Source of the DNA: Flavobacteriales bacterium
GTDB taxonomy: Bacteria; Bacteroidota; Bacteroidia; Flavobacteriales; UBA7430
Length of the DNA: 9,836 nt
Reading direction: 5' to 3'
Assembly: GCA_002685115.1 (NCBI GenBank)
Contig: NYWQ01000044.1
Span: forward strand, 2,434-12,269
Shown one piece after another: positions 1-9,836 of this stretch. The position numbers and the translations under genes were made by a program. Every line of letters begins with the position of its first letter. Within the stretch, counting starts at the first letter, position 1. The notes below the pieces were generated by a model. The model was not told the origin of the DNA, ran no database searches, and was given only the letters and a program-made list of their open reading frames with translations.

Positions 1-3000
1 ATTGACGACGGTTCTTGTCAGGTACTTGGCTGTACTGATGATGGCTCGGATTTCCTAGATCAATTTAATAACAATGATGGTTCAGTTGGTTCAGATGGAT
101 TGGACGATGATGGAATATATGATCTTGATCAAGATGGCGTACAGGCTGGAAATTACAACGCAAACGCAACGATTAATGATTTCTCTTGTTTATCAGTTGT
201 TGTTCAGGGTTGTACGGATGTATTAGCCTTTAACTTCAATTTAGAGGCTAATAGTGACGATGGTTCTTGTATTCCAGTTGTTAATGGTTGTGCAGACTCC
301 TTATTTGTAGAGTATTTTGATTGGACTTACAATATCGATACACTATACCAGATTTCTAATTACGACATTAACCCAAATACAGATGACGGTTCCTGTTCAG
401 ATACTTTAATTAGAGGTTGTACTCTTTTTGAGTATCTTGATTTCAATGAGGATGCAACGGTTTATAAGGCAGATGAGTGTATAACTCTAAAAGTATTTGG
501 TTGTATGGATACTTTATTCATAGAGTCTCAACTTGGAGTGTTTAATTCTACAGTTTACAATACCCAGCAAGCAACTCAAGAAGATGTTGACAATGGTTTG
601 GCTGCTCAGGTTGGTGATGATTTCCAAGTAGACCTATTCTGTGTTACCTTTAGAGTTGATGGCTGTAATGATCAAAATTATATTGAATACGATGCGAATG
701 CTAACTTTAATGATGGTAGCTGTTTAACGCTCAAGGTTTTTGGCTGTACAGCATCAAATTCTATCAATTTTGATGAAGATGCAAGTGTAGATGATGGATC
801 ATGTATTCTTGCAGTTTCAGGTTGTACAGATGTATTTGCATTTAACTACTTAGATTCTGCAAATGTAGACGATGGTTCTTGTATTGATATTATATTAGGC
901 TGTCCAGATCCTAATTATTTAGAACACTACAATTACAATCAAACAACCTTCCTTTTAGATACACTACCTGCATCTGAAGTTTACAATACAGACGCATATT
1001 CGGGCGATTCCTATTGTGTAACACCAATAATTGAAGGATGTACTGATAATGATTTCTTAGAATATTACGATTACGATTCCACAAACCTATCTGTTACATT
1101 TAAGGCAGATATACCCAACGTAAATGATGGTAGTTGTAACATCCTAGTTGGTCGAGGTTGTATGGACGATTCCTATTTAGAGTATGAATCATCTTTTAAT
1201 GTAAGTGTTCCTAGTGATTGTAATACCCTAAAGATAGAAGGTTGTACAGATCAAGAATATGTAGAATATTGGAACTACGATGCTATAAATTATGTGATTT
1301 CTACACCTGATCAACAAGCAAACATTGATGACGGCTCTTGTTTAACTCTTATTGTAGAGGGATGTTTAAATGAGTTTGCTGACAACTATCTTGTTTACCT
1401 CGATTCAGCTAATGTCAATAATGTAAGTTTATGCGACGGTGGCTTTGGATGTTTGTTACCTCAATATGTAGAATACAATTCCACTTATATCGGTTTAGAT
1501 GCAGATTCGTGTATTGATCTTAAGGTATTTGGATGTGTCGATTCCACTGCATTTAATTTTGACGAAAGCGCCAATATAAATGGTATTGATACCCTAGGGA
1601 GTTCCGATTTCTTCGCTGATTTAAATCAAGCAGGAGAAGAGATTAATACTTGTTATCCTTTTATTTTAGGTTGTACCGATACTACTTCTTACAATTTCAT
1701 TCCTTCATCGAATTCTAATTTGATTGATGTGAATACAGATGATGGTTCTTGTTATCCTATTATATTTGGCTGTACAGATTCTACTGCATTTAACTTTGTT
1801 CAGCCTGTAAATGATTTGTTTGTAGATGTAAATACAGATGACAATTCTTGTTATCAAGTCAAAGAAGGTTGTTTAGATTTAGATGCTTATAATTACAACG
1901 ACTGGAATGGCGATGGAGTAGCGGACGTATTTGTTTCTGCAGAGAGTCAAAACATCAATACAAATATTGATTCTTTGTGTGTGGCTAAAGAATTTGGCTG
2001 TATGGATCCTTCAGCATTTAATTACGATTCGTTGGCGAATACTCAGGAAACAAGTCTGATCGATTCAAGTGATCCATGCATTCCTTATATATATGGTTGT
2101 ACAGATGCTTCTCAGTTTAATTTTGATCCAACTGCAAATACGAATCAAATTTCTGAAACTGAAACAATAAGTCCGTGTTATGCTATTATATATGGTTGTA
2201 CTGATGCTTTAGCTGATAACTTTATACCGCTAACAAATGATTCTTTAGTTGATGTAAATACCAATAACGGAACCTGTGAATTTTTGGGTTGTATAAACCA
2301 AACAGCATCTAATTTCAATCCAACCGCCAATACCGATGACGGTTCTTGTATTATATCAGGTTGTACTATTGATTTATACTCTAACTACAATCCAGTTGCT
2401 TCTATAGATGACGGTACATGTAGTTATGAAATTTTTGAAATTTACGGATGTTCTGATAATAATTATTTAGAATTTTACAATTACAATTCATCCGATTTAT
2501 CTATTTCTTTAGTAGATCTATCAGTAACAAATGATAACGGAACTTGTTTTACGCCACTTATTTCTGGTTGTAGCTTAGTTGGGATGTTTAATTACAATAG
2601 CTTAGTAAATGTAGCAGACAATGCAATTTGCCAAGAAGTTGTAAATGGTTGTACAGATTCACTGTTTATAGAGTACTGGTCTTACGATACTTCAACTTCA
2701 ACAATCACAATGCTAAATTCACCAGCAAATACAGATGATGGTTCTTGTTTAACTTCTATCGTTACTGGTTGTACTCTAGTGGATGACAATCAATTCGATG
2801 CCCTGGCAAATGTTTACGATACATTAGCTTGTTTAGTTGAGGGTTGTGCCGATGAAGCATATTTAGAGTATGATATGGCTGTTACTTTAGCTAACACAGA
2901 CTTTTGTATAACACCAGTAGTCTTTGGTTGTTCCGATCGGACTTATTTAGAGTTCTACGATCTTGAAGCTCTTTTTGACGATCAAGACGTCTACTTCTTA

Positions 3001-6000
3001 ACTGAAAAAACTGATGTGCCAAATAGTAACGATGGCTCTTGTATTACTAAAATTGTTACCGGTTGCTTTTATTCAGATTTTGTAAATTACAATGAAAGTG
3101 TTAACGTTTACAATTTTTACGATGTGCCAAATTCGTATGAATCCGATACCACAATAAGTGATCTATGTGGGGCTCCTTTAGTTACAGGTTGTACAGACTC
3201 AATTGCCACTAATTTTGATTCTGCAGCTAATATTGATGCAGAATGTTTCTACACAGGTTGTACTTTGCCATTTGCGTTTAATTACAATGCAATTGCCGAT
3301 GTTGATGATGGTTCGTGTGTTCCTTTTATTAGTGGATGTACAGTGAATTTGTTTGCGAATTTCAATCCGTTAGCAAATATTGATGATGGGTCTTGTTCAA
3401 ATGCTACACAAGTAATATACGGCTGTAAAGATTCGTTGTATTTTGAGTTTAATAGTTTTGCTACGCTTGAGGCTTCTCCTTCAACTTGTATAAATTTAAA
3501 TGCAATTGGTTGTATGGATGTAAATGCCGAAACATGGAACGCTCAAGCAACAATTCACGACAATACTCTTTGTACCTATGAGGTTATTTCTGGTTGTACT
3601 TCAGACTTTTACCTAGAATACAATCCCTTAGCAACTATTAGTGATATTACAGCTTGTAATATCCCAAAAATTCTTGGTTGTACAAACGAGAATTCTACGA
3701 ACTTTAATGCTGATGCAAATCAAGATGACGACTCTTGTATTGAAATTATTCTTGGTTGTACCAATCCTGAATACATAGAATATTGGAACTACGATTCTGA
3801 ACTCAAGACGCTTTCTAGTCCAAGTCAAATTGCCAATACGGATACAGAACAAACCAGTTGTTTAAATCTTATTAACGATGGATGTACTGATTTAGATTAC
3901 ATTGAAACGTATAACTTTAATTTATTTAATGGCTTTTATACTCTAAATGATGTTAATTCATCTATTAATGTAACCAACTCTTCAGCTTGTCAAAACCCTA
4001 TTGTAAGTGGTTGTATATACGATACATTTAGCGAATTTAATCCTCAAGCAAATGTGTTAAATCAAGCTGATTGTATAAATATTATTGATAATGTTTGTGC
4101 TGATCCATTGGCTGATGTATTTGTAGACTTAACAATAACTAGCATCTATTACACCACAGGATCATCAAGTTACGCTTACCAAGAGGATAATTCTTTATGT
4201 GACTACACCGGTTGTACAAATCCTGCATTTTTAGAATACCAAGAGAATTTTACAATTTCAGATGAGAGTGCTTGTGAGACTTATAAAGTTGTGGGTTGTA
4301 ACGATACTTCTTTTATTGAAAGTTACCTTGATGTTTTGTATGACGCTGAATCGGATACTTACACTGTTGGTGAACTAAATCCTATTGTCAACTTTAACGA
4401 TTATTCTTATTGTTTAACTCCAATAGTACAGTCTTGTGCTATTTGGTATTATCAAGAGTTTAATCCTGCGACGAATATTGTAGACAATTCTAAATGTCTT
4501 GCTATCGCTATTTACGAATGCAGTGATTCGTTAGCTGATAACTTCAATCCTAATGCAAACTTTATTCAATCTGGTCATCCTGTCAATCTAAGTTTCAATC
4601 AAGAGAACTGCGAATACCAAGGTTGTATTGATTCAAATTACATAGAGTTTTGGGATTATAATGAGGTGTCAAATGAAATTAGCGCTCCAGCAAGGATTGC
4701 AAATATTGATGATGGCTCATGTAACACAAGTATTGTCTTTGGATGTACTATGGAGGGAATGCTAAATTATGATGAAGCTGCAAATGCAAATCATGTGAGT
4801 TTTGAAGATATGTCATCACCATGTATAGAAAAAGTATACGGGTGTACAGATGAATTGTATATAGAATTTAATCAAGATGCAAATATTGAAAATGGCTCTT
4901 GTAGTGAGTTGGTTTATTTAGGATGTTTAAACTCCTTATCCATCAATTACGATCCGCTAGCCAATAAAAATGATGGCTCGTGTGTTCAGAAAATTCAAGG
5001 TTGTGCGGATAACGGCTCTGTATTTGAAGATCTTATTAATAATCTAACCGGTGAGCAATTACCAGATGGGGTAGATGACGACTACCAATACGATTATGAT
5101 GGTGATGGATTGGCTGCATTTAACTACAACTCACAAGCCAATATAAATTTATTATGTGAGCCTATTGTGTATGGTTGTATCTTATCAGATCAGTTTAATT
5201 ACAACTCAAATGCAAATGTTAACGATGGCTCTTGTTATCCAGTGATAGAAGGTTGTTTAAACGAATCGTTTTACAATTACAACGATTATGATTACGACGG
5301 AGCACCCAATGAATTTACTAATGACGTGTTTGTTGATATAAATACCGACAATGTTATTTATTGTGAACAACAACAACTTGGATGTACTGATGATAAACCC
5401 ATATTAATTGATGGCACTCCAGTTGCAGATAATTTAGATCCGAATGCAAATACTGATAATGGATCATGTATCTATTATGGATGTACAGATGTAGATGCGG
5501 ATAATTTCCAAGATTGGGCTACAAATACTGGTATTATTAACAGTTGTATTTACTTTGGATGTACAGATGTAAATTCATTTAACTACGACCCACAAGCAAA
5601 CTCAGATGTTGGGTGTATACCAAATGTGGAAGGTTGTGTGAACAGTTCGTTCCTTGAATATTGGGAGTTCAATGCAACATCAAATACAATTACCCCTCTG
5701 GAAACTCCAGCAAATGTAAACAACGGTAGTTGTTTAAACTTTATAAAGTTCGGTTGTACACTTGAAACAGCTTTAAATTATGATGCTTCTGCAAATGTTA
5801 ATCAGGTCGGTTTTGAGGATGAATCAACCCCATGTATACCTTATATTTTTGGTTGTACGGACTCATTAGCATTTAATTATAATGAATTAGCCAATACTGA
5901 TAATGAATTGTGTGTTCCTTATATTGAGGGCTGTTTAAATCCTCTGGCTTTAAATTATAACGAAGATGCTAATGTAAATTCTGGTTGTATTCTTCCTAAT

Positions 6001-9000
6001 TATGGATGTACAGACCAATCCTCTTTTAATTACGATGAAGAAGCTCAAGTTGACGACGGGTCTTGTTATCCTATTGTTGAAGGTTGTGTTAATCCATTTG
6101 CAGTTAATTACAATTCCAGTGCGAATACCAATAATGGATCTTGTTTAGCGTTTGTTGCGGGATGTACAGATGTTACTGCACTTAACTATTACTCTTTTGC
6201 TACATTTGACGACGGTAGTTGTATAACTGCTGTCCCAGGTTGTACTAATATTTATGCTGTAAACTACGATGAAAATGCCAATCAATATTTAGAAGGTTCG
6301 TGTAGTTATGAAGTTGAAGAAGTTGAAGGTTGTATGTTTGCATTCGCTACGAACTACAATCCATTAGCTACTATTGATGACGGTTCTTGTAGTTTCAATA
6401 GAGCTGTTTCTAGAGAAGCTATTTTGATTTGTACTGATTCAACTGCAATAGCCGGTTCTTACTTCCCTTATGGGGATGTTGAAAGTAATTTGTACCAAGG
6501 AGATTCAACTTTTATTGCCAATGAATGGCTTGTTGATAACAGCACTTGTTTGTATCCTCTAGTAATTCAAGGTTGTACAGATCCTACTGCGATTAATTAT
6601 AATCCGAATGCTACAGAAGATGATCAATCATGTATTTTAAATGCAATTTATGGGTGTTTAGATTCCACTTATTTAGAATACAATGATTTGGCGACTCTAG
6701 ATACTGATCCTTCTTCTTGTGTGAATGTAAAAATTGAAGGTTGTTTCGACATTACTGCTTCAAATTACGATCCACAAGTAAATACCAATCTGTCAGATTT
6801 TAGTACATGTGAATACAATACCGTTCTTGGATGTACAGATGCGAACTATATTGAATATTGGGATTACGATGTTGCAAGTCAATTGATCTCATTCTTTGAT
6901 ACTATTCCAAACCAAGACGATGGTAGTTGTTTAACTGAAATCCAATTTGGTTGCACAGACAGTTTGGCCTTTAATTTTGAGAGCAATGCCAATGTTAATC
7001 AAACAAATGCTCAAAATCAAACGTCTACTTGTGTCTCAATTGTTTTGGGTTGTACAGATACTTCAAAGTTCAATTTTGATCTAAATGCGAACACAGACGA
7101 TGGCTCTTGTATCGATATCATCTTAGGATGTATGAATACTGAATACACTGAGTACAATGAATTCGCAAATCAAGATACTGACCCTTCTTCATGTATTCTT
7201 GCGCATACAAATGGTTGTACGGATGCTTCTGCAACCAATTATAATGCAGATGCTACGTTAGACGACGCGTCATGCGAATACGCTGTGTTAGGTTGTACAG
7301 ATGTAACCGCCTTAAACTTTAACGAGCTAGCTGATGTTGATGATAATTCATGTGTCTATCCAATATTAGGTTGTACTGATGTAAATGCATCGAATTACAA
7401 TGCCGATGCTACGACAGATGACAATTCATGCTCAGGTTGTTCGGTTACTTTTGCAATAAACTATTGTTCTAGTTGTGATTTAATTGACGATTCTATTTGT
7501 GAAATTGAAGGTTGTATGGATGTAAATGCTCCCAACTACAATTCCAATGCTACTCTAGACGACGGAACCTTCTGTTCGCCGTTCGATACTGAGGTATATG
7601 GTTGTACCGATCCTTTATATTTAGAATACTATACTTATACTGGAGAAGAGATCTATGTATTATCTGGTGTTGCCACTCATTTAGGTCAAGTGATCACTTC
7701 AGATAATGGTACTTGTGAAACTCTTATCTTAATGGATTGTACCAACAGTGATGCATGTAATTACAATATTCAGGCAAATGTTGATTTAGGTACTTGCAAT
7801 GTGCCAGTTGATTGTGAAACCTGTTCAGGTGAGCAAGATGGAACAGGAACTGTAGTAGATAATGATTCTGATAACGATGGTTTGTGTAATGTTCTTGATG
7901 TAGTATTTGGCTGTACAGATGCAACGGCTTGTAACTTCAATTCATCATCCACCATTAATTCAGACAATACCACTTGTGTCTTTACTGATGGTGTTTGTGA
8001 AACCTGTTCAGGCGAGCAAGATGGAACAGGAACAGTAATAGATAATGATTCTGATAACGATGGATTGTGTAATGTTCTTGATGTAGTATCTGGATGTACC
8101 GATGCTACGGCTTGTAACTTCAATTCATCATCCACTATTAATTCAGATAATACCATCTGTATCTTTACTGATGGTGTTTGTGAATCTTGTTCAGGTGAAC
8201 AAGATGGAACAGGAACTGTAGTAGATAATGATTCTGATAACGATGCTGTATGTAATACGCTGGAGGTTGTTGGCTGTATTGATCAGACTGCATGTAATTA
8301 TAATGCTGCTGCAACCGATTCGGATGATTGCATCTATACAACTGATTTAGATGATTGCGCAACCTGTTCTGGCGAGCAAGATGGAACAGGAACTGTAGTA
8401 GACAACGATACCGATAACGATGGTATTTGCTTATTAGATGAAGTTGCCGGATGTTTGGATGAAACTGCTTGTAACTATAACTCTACTGCAACCGATTCAG
8501 ATGATTGTCTTTTCACTGATGGTGTTTGTGAATCGTGTTCAGGCGAGCAAGATGGAACAGGTACAATAGTAGATAATGATTCTGATAACGATGGTTTGTG
8601 TAATGTGCTTGACATAGTGTCTGGTTGTACTGATGCATCTGCTTGTAACTATAACTCATCTTCCACTATTAATTCGGATAATTCTATTTGTATTCTTACA
8701 GATGGTGTTTGTGAATCTTGTTCAGGTGAACAAGATGGAACAGGAACATTAGTAGATAACGATTCAGACTCCGATGGTGTGTGTGATGCACTTGAGGTTG
8801 TTGGCTGTATTGATGAGACTGCATGCAACTATAATACTGCAGCAACCGATGCTGCCGATTGCGTTTATTCAACAGATCTTGATGCATGTGCAAGCTGTTC
8901 GGGTGAACAAGATGGAACAGGAACAGTAGTAGACAATGATACTGATAATGACGGGCTATGTAATGCACTCGAAATTTTAGGTTGTACAGATGCTTCTGCA

Positions 9001-9836
9001 TGTAACTATAATGCTGTAGCAACCGATTCAGATGATTGCGTTTATTCAACAGATCTTGATGATTGTGCAACCTGTTCCGGTGAAACAGACGGTACAGGAA
9101 CTATAGTAGATAATGATACCGATAATGACGGTGTTTGTGGTGCAGATGAAATTGAAGGTTGTACTTTAGTATGGGCTGATAACTTTTTAGAGAATGCAAC
9201 TGATAGTAACGATCAGCTGTGTGTCAGAGAAGGTTGTATGGTTGTTAATATGTTCAATTACGATTCTTTAGCTACTTTTGATTCTGGAGGTTGTATTCAA
9301 TTTATTTATGGATGTACAGATGTTTCTGCTAACAACTACAATTCAGAAGCTAACACTCAAGGAACATCTGTTTGTTTTTATGAGGGTTGTATGGATTCAT
9401 TGTATCAAAATTATAATCCAATAGCAAATATTCAATCTGCTTGTATCTACTCAGGATGTACAAATCCAGAGTCCTTCAACTACGAAGAAATTGCCAATCA
9501 AGATGATGGTTCTTGTTACGATATAGTAATTGGTTGTATGGATTCTCTAGCGCAGAACTTTAATCAATTGGCAAACACAGCTTCATCTTGTGAATTTGTT
9601 GGTTGTATGGATTCTTCAGCTGATAACTTCCTTGAATATGCTAATATCAATGATGTTTGTTATTTCTATGGTTGTATGAACGAAAATGCATGTAACTATT
9701 CTGAACAAGCAAATGTTCAGCTTAGTAATTTCTGCGAATTCCCTCAACAGAATTATGATTGTGACTCTGTTTGTTTATTCGATTCAGATAATGATGGTGT
9801 GTGTAATGAATTTGAGATTTTTGGATGTTTAGATGA
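1..9836 (+). CDS. Giant cysteine-rich tandem-repeat protein, internal fragment (both ends outside the window)
   Basis: Frame 1 is open from the first to the last base: 3,278 codons, no stop and no frameshift, with the same repeat register kept throughout. The product is a chain of about 94 complete units, each opening with Gly-Cys (usually GCTD) and closing with a second Cys (usually DDGSC), with N-Y-N or a variant between. I count roughly 225-230 Cys but only about 22 Lys, 8 Arg and 6 His. The many paired cysteines imply folding in an oxidising place, outside the cytoplasm. Aspartate-rich stretches such as DNDSDNDG resemble calcium-binding loops. The sequence style matches large secreted repeat proteins of marine Bacteroidota as I remember them, so a surface adhesin, stalk or matrix protein is the best guess. 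Start codon, signal peptide and C-terminal sorting domain would lie outside the window. No enzyme motif is seen. An algal or viral origin is less likely but not excluded. The coding call is very secure; the function is not. Confidence 0.97.
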   Translation, partial: MDDGSCQVLGCTDDGSDFLDQFNNNDGSVGSDGLDDDGIYDLDQDGVQAGNYNANATINDFSCLSVVVQGCTDVLAFNFNLEANSDDGSCIPVVNGCADSLFVEYFDWTYNIDTLYQISNYDINPNTDDGSCSDTLIRGCTLFEYLDFNEDATVYKADECITLKVFGCMDTLFIESQLGVFNSTVYNTQQATQEDVDNGLAAQVGDDFQVDLFCVTFRVDGCNDQNYIEYDANANFNDGSCLTLKVFGCTASNSINFDEDASVDDGSCILAVSGCTDVFAFNYLDSANVDDGSCIDIILGCPDPNYLEHYNYNQTTFLLDTLPASEVYNTDAYSGDSYCVTPIIEGCTDNDFLEYYDYDSTNLSVTFKADIPNVNDGSCNILVGRGCMDDSYLEYESSFNVSVPSDCNTLKIEGCTDQEYVEYWNYDAINYVISTPDQQANIDDGSCLTLIVEGCLNEFADNYLVYLDSANVNNVSLCDGGFGCLLPQYVEYNSTYIGLDADSCIDLKVFGCVDSTAFNFDESANINGIDTLGSSDFFADLNQAGEEINTCYPFILGCTDTTSYNFIPSSNSNLIDVNTDDGSCYPIIFGCTDSTAFNFVQPVNDLFVDVNTDDNSCYQVKEGCLDLDAYNYNDWNGDGVADVFVSAESQNINTNIDSLCVAKEFGCMDPSAFNYDSLANTQETSLIDSSDPCIPYIYGCTDASQFNFDPTANTNQISETETISPCYAIIYGCTDALADNFIPLTNDSLVDVNTNNGTCEFLGCINQTASNFNPTANTDDGSCIISGCTIDLYSNYNPVASIDDGTCSYEIFEIYGCSDNNYLEFYNYNSSDLSISLVDLSVTNDNGTCFTPLISGCSLVGMFNYNSLVNVADNAICQEVVNGCTDSLFIEYWSYDTSTSTITMLNSPANTDDGSCLTSIVTGCTLVDDNQFDALANVYDTLACLVEGCADEAYLEYDMAVTLANTDFCITPVVFGCSDRTYLEFYDLEALFDDQDVYFLTEKTDVPNSNDGSCITKIVTGCFYSDFVNYNESVNVYNFYDVPNSYESDTTISDLCGAPLVTGCTDSIATNFDSAANIDAECFYTGCTLPFAFNYNAIADVDDGSCVPFISGCTVNLFANFNPLANIDDGSCSNATQVIYGCKDSLYFEFNSFATLEASPSTCINLNAIGCMDVNAETWNAQATIHDNTLCTYEVISGCTSDFYLEYNPLATISDITACNIPKILGCTNENSTNFNADANQDDDSCIEIILGCTNPEYIEYWNYDSELKTLSSPSQIANTDTEQTSCLNLINDGCTDLDYIETYNFNLFNGFYTLNDVNSSINVTNSSACQNPIVSGCIYDTFSEFNPQANVLNQADCINIIDNVCADPLADVFVDLTITSIYYTTGSSSYAYQEDNSLCDYTGCTNPAFLEYQENFTISDESACETYKVVGCNDTSFIESYLDVLYDAESDTYTVGELNPIVNFNDYSYCLTPIVQSCAIWYYQEFNPATNIVDNSKCLAIAIYECSDSLADNFNPNANFIQSGHPVNLSFNQENCEYQGCIDSNYIEFWDYNEVSNEISAPARIANIDDGSCNTSIVFGCTMEGMLNYDEAANANHVSFEDMSSPCIEKVYGCTDELYIEFNQDANIENGSCSELVYLGCLNSLSINYDPLANKNDGSCVQKIQGCADNGSVFEDLINNLTGEQLPDGVDDDYQYDYDGDGLAAFNYNSQANINLLCEPIVYGCILSDQFNYNSNANVNDGSCYPVIEGCLNESFYNYNDYDYDGAPNEFTNDVFVDINTDNVIYCEQQQLGCTDDKPILIDGTPVADNLDPNANTDNGSCIYYGCTDVDADNFQDWATNTGIINSCIYFGCTDVNSFNYDPQANSDVGCIPNVEGCVNSSFLEYWEFNATSNTITPLETPANVNNGSCLNFIKFGCTLETALNYDASANVNQVGFEDESTPCIPYIFGCTDSLAFNYNELANTDNELCVPYIEGCLNPLALNYNEDANVNSGCILPNYGCTDQSSFNYDEEAQVDDGSCYPIVEGCVNPFAVNYNSSANTNNGSCLAFVAGCTDVTALNYYSFATFDDGSCITAVPGCTNIYAVNYDENANQYLEGSCSYEVEEVEGCMFAFATNYNPLATIDDGSCSFNRAVSREAILICTDSTAIAGSYFPYGDVESNLYQGDSTFIANEWLVDNSTCLYPLVIQGCTDPTAINYNPNATEDDQSCILNAIYGCLDSTYLEYNDLATLDTDPSSCVNVKIEGCFDITASNYDPQVNTNLSDFSTCEYNTVLGCTDANYIEYWDYDVASQLISFFDTIPNQDDGSCLTEIQFGCTDSLAFNFESNANVNQTNAQNQTSTCVSIVLGCTDTSKFNFDLNANTDDGSCIDIILGCMNTEYTEYNEFANQDTDPSSCILAHTNGCTDASATNYNADATLDDASCEYAVLGCTDVTALNFNELADVDDNSCVYPILGCTDVNASNYNADATTDDNSCSGCSVTFAINYCSSCDLIDDSICEIEGCMDVNAPNYNSNATLDDGTFCSPFDTEVYGCTDPLYLEYYTYTGEEIYVLSGVATHLGQVITSDNGTCETLILMDCTNSDACNYNIQANVDLGTCNVPVDCETCSGEQDGTGTVVDNDSDNDGLCNVLDVVFGCTDATACNFNSSSTINSDNTTCVFTDGVCETCSGEQDGTGTVIDNDSDNDGLCNVLDVVSGCTDATACNFNSSSTINSDNTICIFTDGVCESCSGEQDGTGTVVDNDSDNDAVCNTLEVVGCIDQTACNYNAAATDSDDCIYTTDLDDCATCSGEQDGTGTVVDNDTDNDGICLLDEVAGCLDETACNYNSTATDSDDCLFTDGVCESCSGEQDGTGTIVDNDSDNDGLCNVLDIVSGCTDASACNYNSSSTINSDNSICILTDGVCESCSGEQDGTGTLVDNDSDSDGVCDALEVVGCIDETACNYNTAATDAADCVYSTDLDACASCSGEQDGTGTVVDNDTDNDGLCNALEILGCTDASACNYNAVATDSDDCVYSTDLDDCATCSGETDGTGTIVDNDTDNDGVCGADEIEGCTLVWADNFLENATDSNDQLCVREGCMVVNMFNYDSLATFDSGGCIQFIYGCTDVSANNYNSEANTQGTSVCFYEGCMDSLYQNYNPIANIQSACIYSGCTNPESFNYEEIANQDDGSCYDIVIGCMDSLAQNFNQLANTASSCEFVGCMDSSADNFLEYANINDVCYFYGCMNENACNYSEQANVQLSNFCEFPQQNYDCDSVCLFDSDNDGVCNEFEIFGCLD
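28..207 (+). repeat. Rare 60-residue unit with Asp/Gly-rich insertion, copy 1
   Basis: Codons 10-69 run GCTDDGSDFLD, then an Asn/Gly/Ser stretch, then DGLDDDGIYDLDQDG, then A-G-NYN and a closing Cys at codon 63. The DLDQDG segment looks like an acidic calcium-type loop. This unit aligns almost without gaps to the unit at 4999-5172, and I see no third copy in the window. It is more than twice the length of the basic unit but still has only two cysteines, so the extra residues are a loop between them. Confidence 0.8.
1867..1995 (+). repeat. 43-residue unit with a D-x-N-x-D-G-x-x-D loop, copy 1
   Basis: Codons 623-665 begin GCLDLDAYNYN and continue into DWNGDGVAD (codons 634-642). This fits the D-x-[ND]-x-D-G-x-x-D pattern of calcium loops seen in dockerin, EF-hand-like and VCBS/FG-GAP repeats. 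The loop follows NYN directly, and the unit closes with Cys at codon 660. A second unit of the same length and opening (GCLNESFYNYN) lies at 5251-5379, where the loop is degraded to YDYDGAPNE. Metal binding is inferred from the motif alone. Confidence 0.7.
4621..4839 (+). repeat. 73-residue two-unit block (40+33), copy 1
   Basis: A 40-residue unit (GCIDSNYIEFWDYN ... ANIDDGSC) is followed by a 33-residue unit (GCTMEGMLNYD ... ANANHVSFED ... SPC). The next GC is exactly 73 codons after the first. The same 40+33 arrangement occurs at 5632-5850 and 6829-7047. The second member carries an extra seven or so residues between A-N and the closing Cys, compared with the basic 26-residue unit. Confidence 0.8.
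4999..5172 (+). repeat. Rare 58-residue unit with Asp/Gly-rich insertion, copy 2
   Basis: Codons 1667-1724 run GCADNGSVFED, then NNLTGEQLPDG, then VDDDYQYDYDGDG, then AAFNYN, closing at Cys 1719. They match the unit at 28-207 position by position: GC-x-D-x-GS-x-F-x-D, NN, DG-x-DDD, Y-D-x-D-x-DG and A-x-NYN. The two copies are 4,971 bases apart. The DYDGDG stretch is a plausible calcium loop. The following 26- and 43-residue units also match the two units after copy 1 in length, though weakly in sequence. Confidence 0.8.
5251..5379 (+). repeat. 43-residue unit with Asp-rich loop, copy 2
   Basis: Codons 1751-1793 open GCLNESFYNYN, continue NDYDYDGAPNE and DVFVDINTDN, and close at Cys 1788. Length and opening equal those of the unit at 1867-1995, but the metal-loop pattern is poorer here because the Gly-Asp-Gly core is changed. 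It appears to be a diverged paralogue of that unit. Confidence 0.6.
5632..5850 (+). repeat. 73-residue two-unit block (40+33), copy 2
   Basis: The first unit reads GCVNSSFLEYWEFN ... TPANVNNGSC (40 residues). The second reads GCTLETALNYD ... ANVNQVGFEDESTPC (33 residues to the next GC). Closest relative is the block at 4621-4839, which shares the LNYD, A-N, V-x-FED and S-x-PC positions. Confidence 0.8.
6829..7047 (+). repeat. 73-residue two-unit block (40+33), copy 3
   Basis: The first unit is GCTDANYIEYWDYD ... PNQDDGSC (40 residues). The second is GCTDSLAFNF ... ANVNQTNAQNQTSTC (33 residues to the next GC). Spacing is identical to the other two blocks. The second unit has a standard GCTDSLAFN opening instead of the LNYD variant, so this copy is more diverged or was rebuilt from a basic unit. 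Confidence 0.75.
7435..7509 (+). repeat. Aberrant four-cysteine unit before the insert array
   Basis: Codons 2479-2503 read GCSVTFAINY, then C-S-S-C, then DLIDDSIC. It has four cysteines in 25 residues instead of two, with a CxxC directly after NY. It lacks GCTD and DDGSC. It sits about 300 bases upstream of the CxxC-insert array and may be a shortened hybrid between a basic unit and that insert. This origin is an inference. Confidence 0.6.
7996..8526 (+). repeat. Three-unit higher-order repeat, first copy (insert units 2-3-4)
   Basis: Units of 61, 59 and 57 residues. The first ends with FTDGV and contains SSSTINSDN; the second contains VVGCIDQTACNYN and ends TTDLDD; the third has DNDTDNDG and ATDSDDC. 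The same order of variants recurs immediately downstream. Equivalent points of units 2/5, 3/6 and 4/7 are each exactly 531 bases apart. Confidence 0.75.
8527..9063 (+). repeat. Three-unit higher-order repeat, second copy (insert units 5-6-7)
   Basis: Units of 61, 59 and 59 residues with the same variant order as 7996-8526: SSSTINSDN then TDGV; VVGCIDETACNYN then STDLDA; DNDTDNDG then ATDSDDC. Units 3 and 6 share their first 38 bases exactly, including silent sites (ggtgaacaag where units 2, 4 and 5 have ggcgagcaag). The last unit is two codons longer than unit 4 and ends in STDLDD instead of FTDGV, so some exchange or later editing followed the duplication. Confidence 0.75.
9157..9759 (+). 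repeat. Return to short two-cysteine units (eight units)
   Basis: Units start at codons 3053, 3078, 3104, 3129, 3152, 3178, 3201 and 3224, at 23-26 residues each except the last, which leads into the final insert. Openings are GCTLVWADNF, GCMVVNMFNYD, GCTDVSANNYN, GCMDSLYQNYN, GCTNPESFNYE, GCMDSLAQNF, GCMDSSADNF and GCMNENACNY. GCMD is commoner than upstream, and the Y-[IL]-E-Y class is absent. The last unit has Cys before NY, the signature otherwise seen only beside the insert array. Confidence 0.9.
9760..9836 (+). repeat. Ninth, divergent Cys/Asp-rich insert, running out of the window
   Basis: From codon 3254 the protein reads CDSVC, LF, DSDNDGVC, NEFEIF and then GCLD at the edge. It keeps three cysteines and the DSDNDG acidic loop, but has CxxxC in place of CxxC and lacks the whole SGEQDGTGT segment. 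It may open a second insert array downstream, which cannot be seen here. Confidence 0.75.

Follow-up and report, generated by a model that had tools for sequence, protein, structure and literature searches.

A single open reading frame runs through the whole stretch of Flavobacteriales DNA analysed here (the window; 9,836 nucleotides, bases 2434-12269 of the 12,269-base contig C82, GenBank NYWQ01000044.1). Translation, collinearity with relatives and simulation identify it as the interior of a giant gene open at both ends (window 1..9834, forward strand; C82 codons 812-4089). As the initial annotation had read it, frame +1 holds 3,278 codons without a stop; the other five frames contain 195-431 stops each. 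Base composition predicts 236 stops in 3,278 codons, giving a log10 probability of −106 for finding none, and the longest six-frame open stretch in 200 first-order Markov simulations was 236 codons. On the full contig the frame remains stop-free over bases 1-12267 (4,089 codons), and its repeats reach both contig ends. The lack of a stop places the C-terminus beyond C82 and, given that the frame is open over all of C82, neither end of the protein lies on the contig, so that what had been noted for the window holds for the contig as well.

Cutting the C82 protein into repeats yielded 113 units, 91 of which contain exactly two cysteines and 23 of which are exactly 26 residues long. The main array of two-cysteine units, delimited by unit cutting and motif pattern, occupies window positions 28..7808 on the forward strand and follows the consensus GCTDxxAxNYNxxAxxDDGSCxxxxx, 26 residues in its basic form, with longer variants; GC motifs number 93 in the window. 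An AlphaFold2 model of six successive units (5851..6327, forward strand; mean pLDDT 87.1) shows a short strand every ~26 residues, with a pTM of 0.51 that leaves the placing of one unit relative to the next uncertain. The array is followed by a block of 58-61-residue units with six cysteines and DxDxDG-like acidic loops (7809..9156, forward strand), found by unit cutting and by a tandem repeat search, in which the DNA copies are ~74% alike (tandem repeat array 7809-9138). The final units before the contig end occupy 9157..9834 on the same strand; in relatives, the next ~270 residues include a C-terminal sorting domain. Five antisense frames of 65-128 residues were also found, four of them at 7724-9070, where they overlap or adjoin the block of 59-61-residue repeats; we judge them to be by-products of the conserved sense frame.

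The composition of the protein is extreme. The window portion contains 228 cysteines, 545 aspartates and glutamates and 30 lysines and arginines, and seven complete relatives carry 425-513 cysteines and 39-145 lysines plus arginines. Control frames from the fetched contigs of the same genome (n=46, at least 300 codons, lacking the repeat motif) contain 0.80% cysteine and 10.31% lysine plus arginine. Tryptic peptides of 7-35 residues are predicted to cover just 2.1-15.9% of the seven complete relatives. The window protein matched no family in Pfam or NCBIfam (up to E 1) or in PHROGs (up to E 0.1), and all of C82 matched no Pfam family up to E 0.1; the repeat therefore cannot be named from family libraries. 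EGF and thrombospondin type 3 repeat models of Pfam were likewise without a match in the window protein (E 1) or the whole contig (E 0.1).

The missing ends are supplied by relatives. A genome of the same genus (G002) encodes an orthologue of 7,469 residues, complete with a signal-like start and a type IX sorting tail; the whole of C82 aligns collinearly to residues 2943-7199 of this orthologue, with 58% identity. In another genus of the same family (G009), a 7,057-residue protein (P0010) is collinear at 41% with C82 residues 3-4059. When residues 1-5000 of a 6,315-residue fragment of the G002 protein served as query, a protein search retrieved 89 relatives. Among these relatives, P0008, a separate and partial record of 6,106 residues from a very close strain, is 96.65% identical to C82 across 3,313 residues with one gap; its residue 2796 aligns to C82 residue 1, and it provides an N-terminus with a signal-like start as read by eye. 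Adding the 2,795 residues that precede this point and the ~270 that follow C82 in P0003, we estimate from these alignments that the window's full protein would be ~7,150 residues long. Eight relatives are complete, at 6,836-7,732 residues (that of G002, P0003, P0005, P0007, P0009, P0010, P0012 and P0013), and all eight combine a signal-like start, read by eye, with PF18962 at the end. The expectation of a protein of many thousands of residues is thus borne out. Its proposed rank among the largest bacterial proteins is less well supported: the protein is huge but not unusual enough for a record, as a survey counts more than 41,000 proteins above 5,000 residues across all life, mostly eukaryotic (PMC11573180). 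The concern that gene finders would miss such a gene is also weakened, since relatives have already been called and deposited publicly, labelled either "hypothetical protein" or "hypothetical protein, partial".

The C-terminal type IX sorting domain that the initial annotation suggested looking for was found in relatives, not through C82 itself. In the G002 protein it scores 56.5 bits with PF18962 (cut-off 27) and 43.8 with TIGR04183 (cut-off 23), and Por_Secre_tail is precomputed in P0003, P0005-P0007 and P0009-P0013. At the other end, where a signal peptide was sought, relatives such as P0008 and the G002 protein have a signal-like start as read by eye, and the window protein's own N-terminus is not on C82; P0006 and P0011 possess the sorting tail and lack a full signal at their predicted start. 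In the fetched contigs of its own genome, the first 2,795 residues of P0008 had no near-identical match (best ~32%). The G002 N-terminus matched contig C88 at 45% and contig C100 at 62% over part of its length, and the G002 C-terminus and upstream gene gave distant matches only (~29% and 26-30%, respectively), C82's own 30 residues aside. No two ends among the 14 fetched repeat-bearing contigs overlap exactly by 19-400 bases, whatever the orientation (contig C65 was compared over 20,000 of its 21,866 bases, without its right end), and the outermost 25-100 bases of C82 do not recur elsewhere on these contigs. Both ends of the gene are probably missing from the draft genome.

A frame of this length made of repeats might be false, joined by the assembler from several shorter genes. 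The genome is a draft, 68% complete (1.34 Mb in 108 contigs), in which the same repeats occur on 14 contigs; three partial records of relatives stop inside the 58-61-residue block or no more than ~100 residues from it, and one of the partial records, P0004, terminates at this block with ~20 residues unlike the family. A record labelled SAR86 carries a 169-base patch identical to the giant gene, from which it follows that mis-joins do occur. Set against these points are the agreement of C82 with the separate record P0008, interrupted by one gap in 3,313 residues, its collinearity over the whole contig with G002 and over nearly the whole contig with G009, the conservation of gene neighbours in relatives, and a proportion of nonsynonymous differences well below that of synonymous differences throughout. 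We therefore regard an artefact as very improbable. As to the records themselves, the last 20 residues of P0004 may be the sign of an assembly break or slip at the block, and the SAR86-labelled contig (CAJIYN010000001.1, L065:10012-10180) matches window 5016-5184 base for base and is different over the rest of its length; this patch is probably chimeric and hints at the presence of the window's species in that sample.

The giant gene is under purifying selection. Comparison with G002 over 4,055 codons gave pN 0.241 and pS 0.694, and pN was the lower of the two in every one of 11 segments; no exact dN/dS is given because pS approaches saturation. The stability of the individual repeats was assessed on 105 of the 113 units, leaving out the last unit and the seven longer than 60 residues. 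For 83 of the 105, the best-matching unit in the G002 protein is the collinear one, and for 81 the collinear G002 unit outscores all the other units of the protein to which they belong. The array is consequently old and stable and did not arise by recent or false expansion. Among the 22 misses are five block units of 59-60 residues, which score far higher among themselves than against the equivalent place in G002. Gene order is conserved too: MnmA and then HtpG lie at most two genes from where the giant gene begins in G002, G008 and G009. Directly after the giant gene of G002 lies a second repeat gene (C45:39230-42352, L039/L040), which runs off its contig.

The repeat is widespread within the family. 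A 467-residue piece of the window protein matches 14 of the 108 contigs of its own genome (E <= 0.001), and shorter repeat frames with both ends present are found there, such as those of 2,070 codons on contig C39 and 1,352 codons on C4; by eye, some have type IX-like tails. The 2,070-codon frame had no NCBIfam match at 1e-10, and a recognised tail is therefore absent from some repeat proteins. Among 60 genomes searched for relatives, 19 matched at 1e-25, including all 12 of the family with the window's own genome counted. A sample of the phylum contained arrays at E 1e-20 in just two of 148 genomes, the window's own and one other, and such arrays are thus not common across the phylum.

What might such a protein do? 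Based on the sorting tail of its relatives, export by the type IX secretion system is a well-supported prediction for the giant protein. The translocon model SprA_N scored over its cut-off in 11 of the 12 genomes of the family, among them the window's own, and in none of 14 controls. We consider it likely that the gene encodes a type IX-exported repeat protein forming a long, acidic surface stalk with stapling disulphides. After Sec export, the chain would pass through the SprA translocon, lose its sorting tail and become attached at the surface. One disulphide per unit, between conserved cysteines ~19 residues apart, would turn the chain into a protease-resistant rod, the acidic loops may bind calcium, and N-terminal beta-sandwich domains would form the outward tip of a stalk that could serve to hold the cell, or to shield it, against particles, neighbours or phages. 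Searches for DsbB and VKOR were negative in all 12 genomes (own and 11 family relatives), despite family proteins with hundreds of conserved cysteines. The N-terminal beta-sandwich pair gave generic matches only, and the N-terminal 400 residues of the G002 protein contain no Pfam family. A beta-sandwich N-terminal domain (P0091 residues 24-145), also lacking a Pfam match, is common to many repeat proteins (P0092-P0210); 119 proteins match a 330-residue piece of P0091 at 1e-10, some through the repeat alone.

The same properties could instead describe a loose coat or S-layer-like armour, a shield or matrix protein that resists proteases and masks receptors from phages and is not an adhesive stalk. 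An acidic, cysteine-rich chain nearly free of lysine and arginine, with the low predicted tryptic coverage given above, would suit such a role, no adhesive domain was found, and the sorting-tailed repeat proteins on phage contigs described below fit a contest over the surface. We nevertheless think a coat unlikely: the N-terminal domain pair shared by many repeat proteins suggests a task at a tip, and a single gene of 7,000 residues is an odd way of making a coat, though the genome is rich in shorter repeat proteins. The stalk could also be a gliding-motility adhesin. SprB of Flavobacterium johnsoniae is a giant protein. It is, like the giant protein studied here, a type IX cargo at the Bacteroidetes cell surface (PMC5445135), and the kinship would agree with the presence of SprA and with a weak SprB-repeat match close to the G002 C-terminus. 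At 16.6 bits, this match (PF13573) falls short of its cut-off of 28; it lies within the C-terminal 400 residues of G002's protein, where secretion-tail, PKD and SprB models are the only ones to appear, and the SprB repeat has no match on the contig. The body of the giant protein is built of a different repeat, the two-cysteine unit, and an adhesin of the SprB type is accordingly an improbable reading.

The stalk that we favour places the protein beside the fibrillar adhesins, which are likewise very long and secreted, with tandem small domains as a stalk, special domains at one end and an anchor signal at the other (PMC8286594). Tandem small domains are what the window contains, as seen in the GC motifs, the unit cutting and the six-unit model, and they would form a stalk. 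The stalk unit here differs from those of fibrillar adhesins in lacking a Pfam family, and the protein has no recognised adhesive domain. Its end signal is a type IX tail, and the term "t9ss" does not occur in the main text of PMC8286594. Several surface proteins of 3,000-8,000 residues in a small genome have been described in Apilactobacillus kunkeei, a lactic acid bacterium (PMC12863079). The best reading is a protein of a known kind, the giant type IX or fibrillar surface protein, made from a little-described building block, the two-cysteine unit; among the titles listed from the literature searched, which mostly excluded subscription journals, none dealt with the giant protein or the two-cysteine repeat. 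New here are the unit, its constancy across species and its resemblance to perforin-2.

This likeness came from structural databases. A profile of 42 window units matched a single protein among solved structures, perforin-2 (MPEG1), at E 1.3e-4 to 4.5e-4, with nothing besides MPEG1 in the PDB up to E 10. The fold model of six units also had MPEG1 as its sole PDB match, with a weak E value. The matched site was termed a truncated EGF-like domain by the authors of the structure; this hinge module and the bacterial unit have the same motif and the same cysteine spacing, but the animal pore-former has the module just once, between its MACPF and P2 domains (PMC6989145). A MACPF domain was absent wherever the giant protein was scanned: no Pfam family appears on C82 or in the N-terminal 400 residues of G002, none of the models in the C-terminal 400 residues is MACPF, and the middle was scanned as far as C82 covers it.

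Copies of the unit are also found on phage contigs. Scanning IMG/VR with six of the window's units turned up 110 candidate stretches; 102 of the 110 were relatives, of which 80 were kept (L068-L147). Repeat proteins of this kind lie, for example, at L101:841-4317, L097:127-3990, L074:721-4098 and L144:1642-3855. Each of the nine loci that were read in detail contains a repeat frame of 739-1,332 residues with a sorting-tail-like end (by eye), and in eight of the nine a gene of 345-367 residues with similar ends, again by eye, follows the repeat frame directly or one gene later. The Pfam cut-off for Por_Secre_tail was passed by all four phage repeat proteins tested. Two of 10 flanking proteins matched a PHROGs family, and Terminase_6N scored over its cut-off in five of 20 records searched, mainly the longer ones. 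No match was found in INPHARED phage genomes by tblastn at 1e-5, a search in which the biased composition may have hidden matches; BFVD gave 13 fold matches at E <= 0.001. Phage-borne type IX cargo is a known kind, as Cryophage has already been described to encode proteins with type IX type A sorting domains (PMC7468147). The Cryophage cargo consists of an endoglucanase, a glycoside hydrolase and a PA14 protein (PMC7468147), whereas the phage proteins found here carry the two-cysteine repeat, and it is the presence of this repeat on such cargo that is new. Perhaps these proteins serve surface mimicry or exclusion. A bolder and tentative proposal, which we hold to be possible and rather doubtful, is that the stalk unit and the perforin-2 hinge are one mobile extracellular module with a single disulphide, which phages have taken onto their own type IX-tailed proteins so that the infected cell shows a copy masking or mimicking the giant stalk.

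These findings concern a conserved protein of ~7,000 residues in small-genome Flavobacteriales that public records list as a "hypothetical protein" and that would be nearly invisible to trypsin-based proteomics. Its repeat is met with in bacteria, on phage contigs and in records labelled as protist, yet matched none of the family models of three libraries. Through its likeness to the perforin-2 hinge, the unit gains a solved structure and a testable origin, and the type IX-tailed phage copies provide a direct way of testing whether a phage redecorates its host's surface. In the protist-labelled eukprot records, a pattern search found 21 copies of the motif in P0038 and one in P0206.
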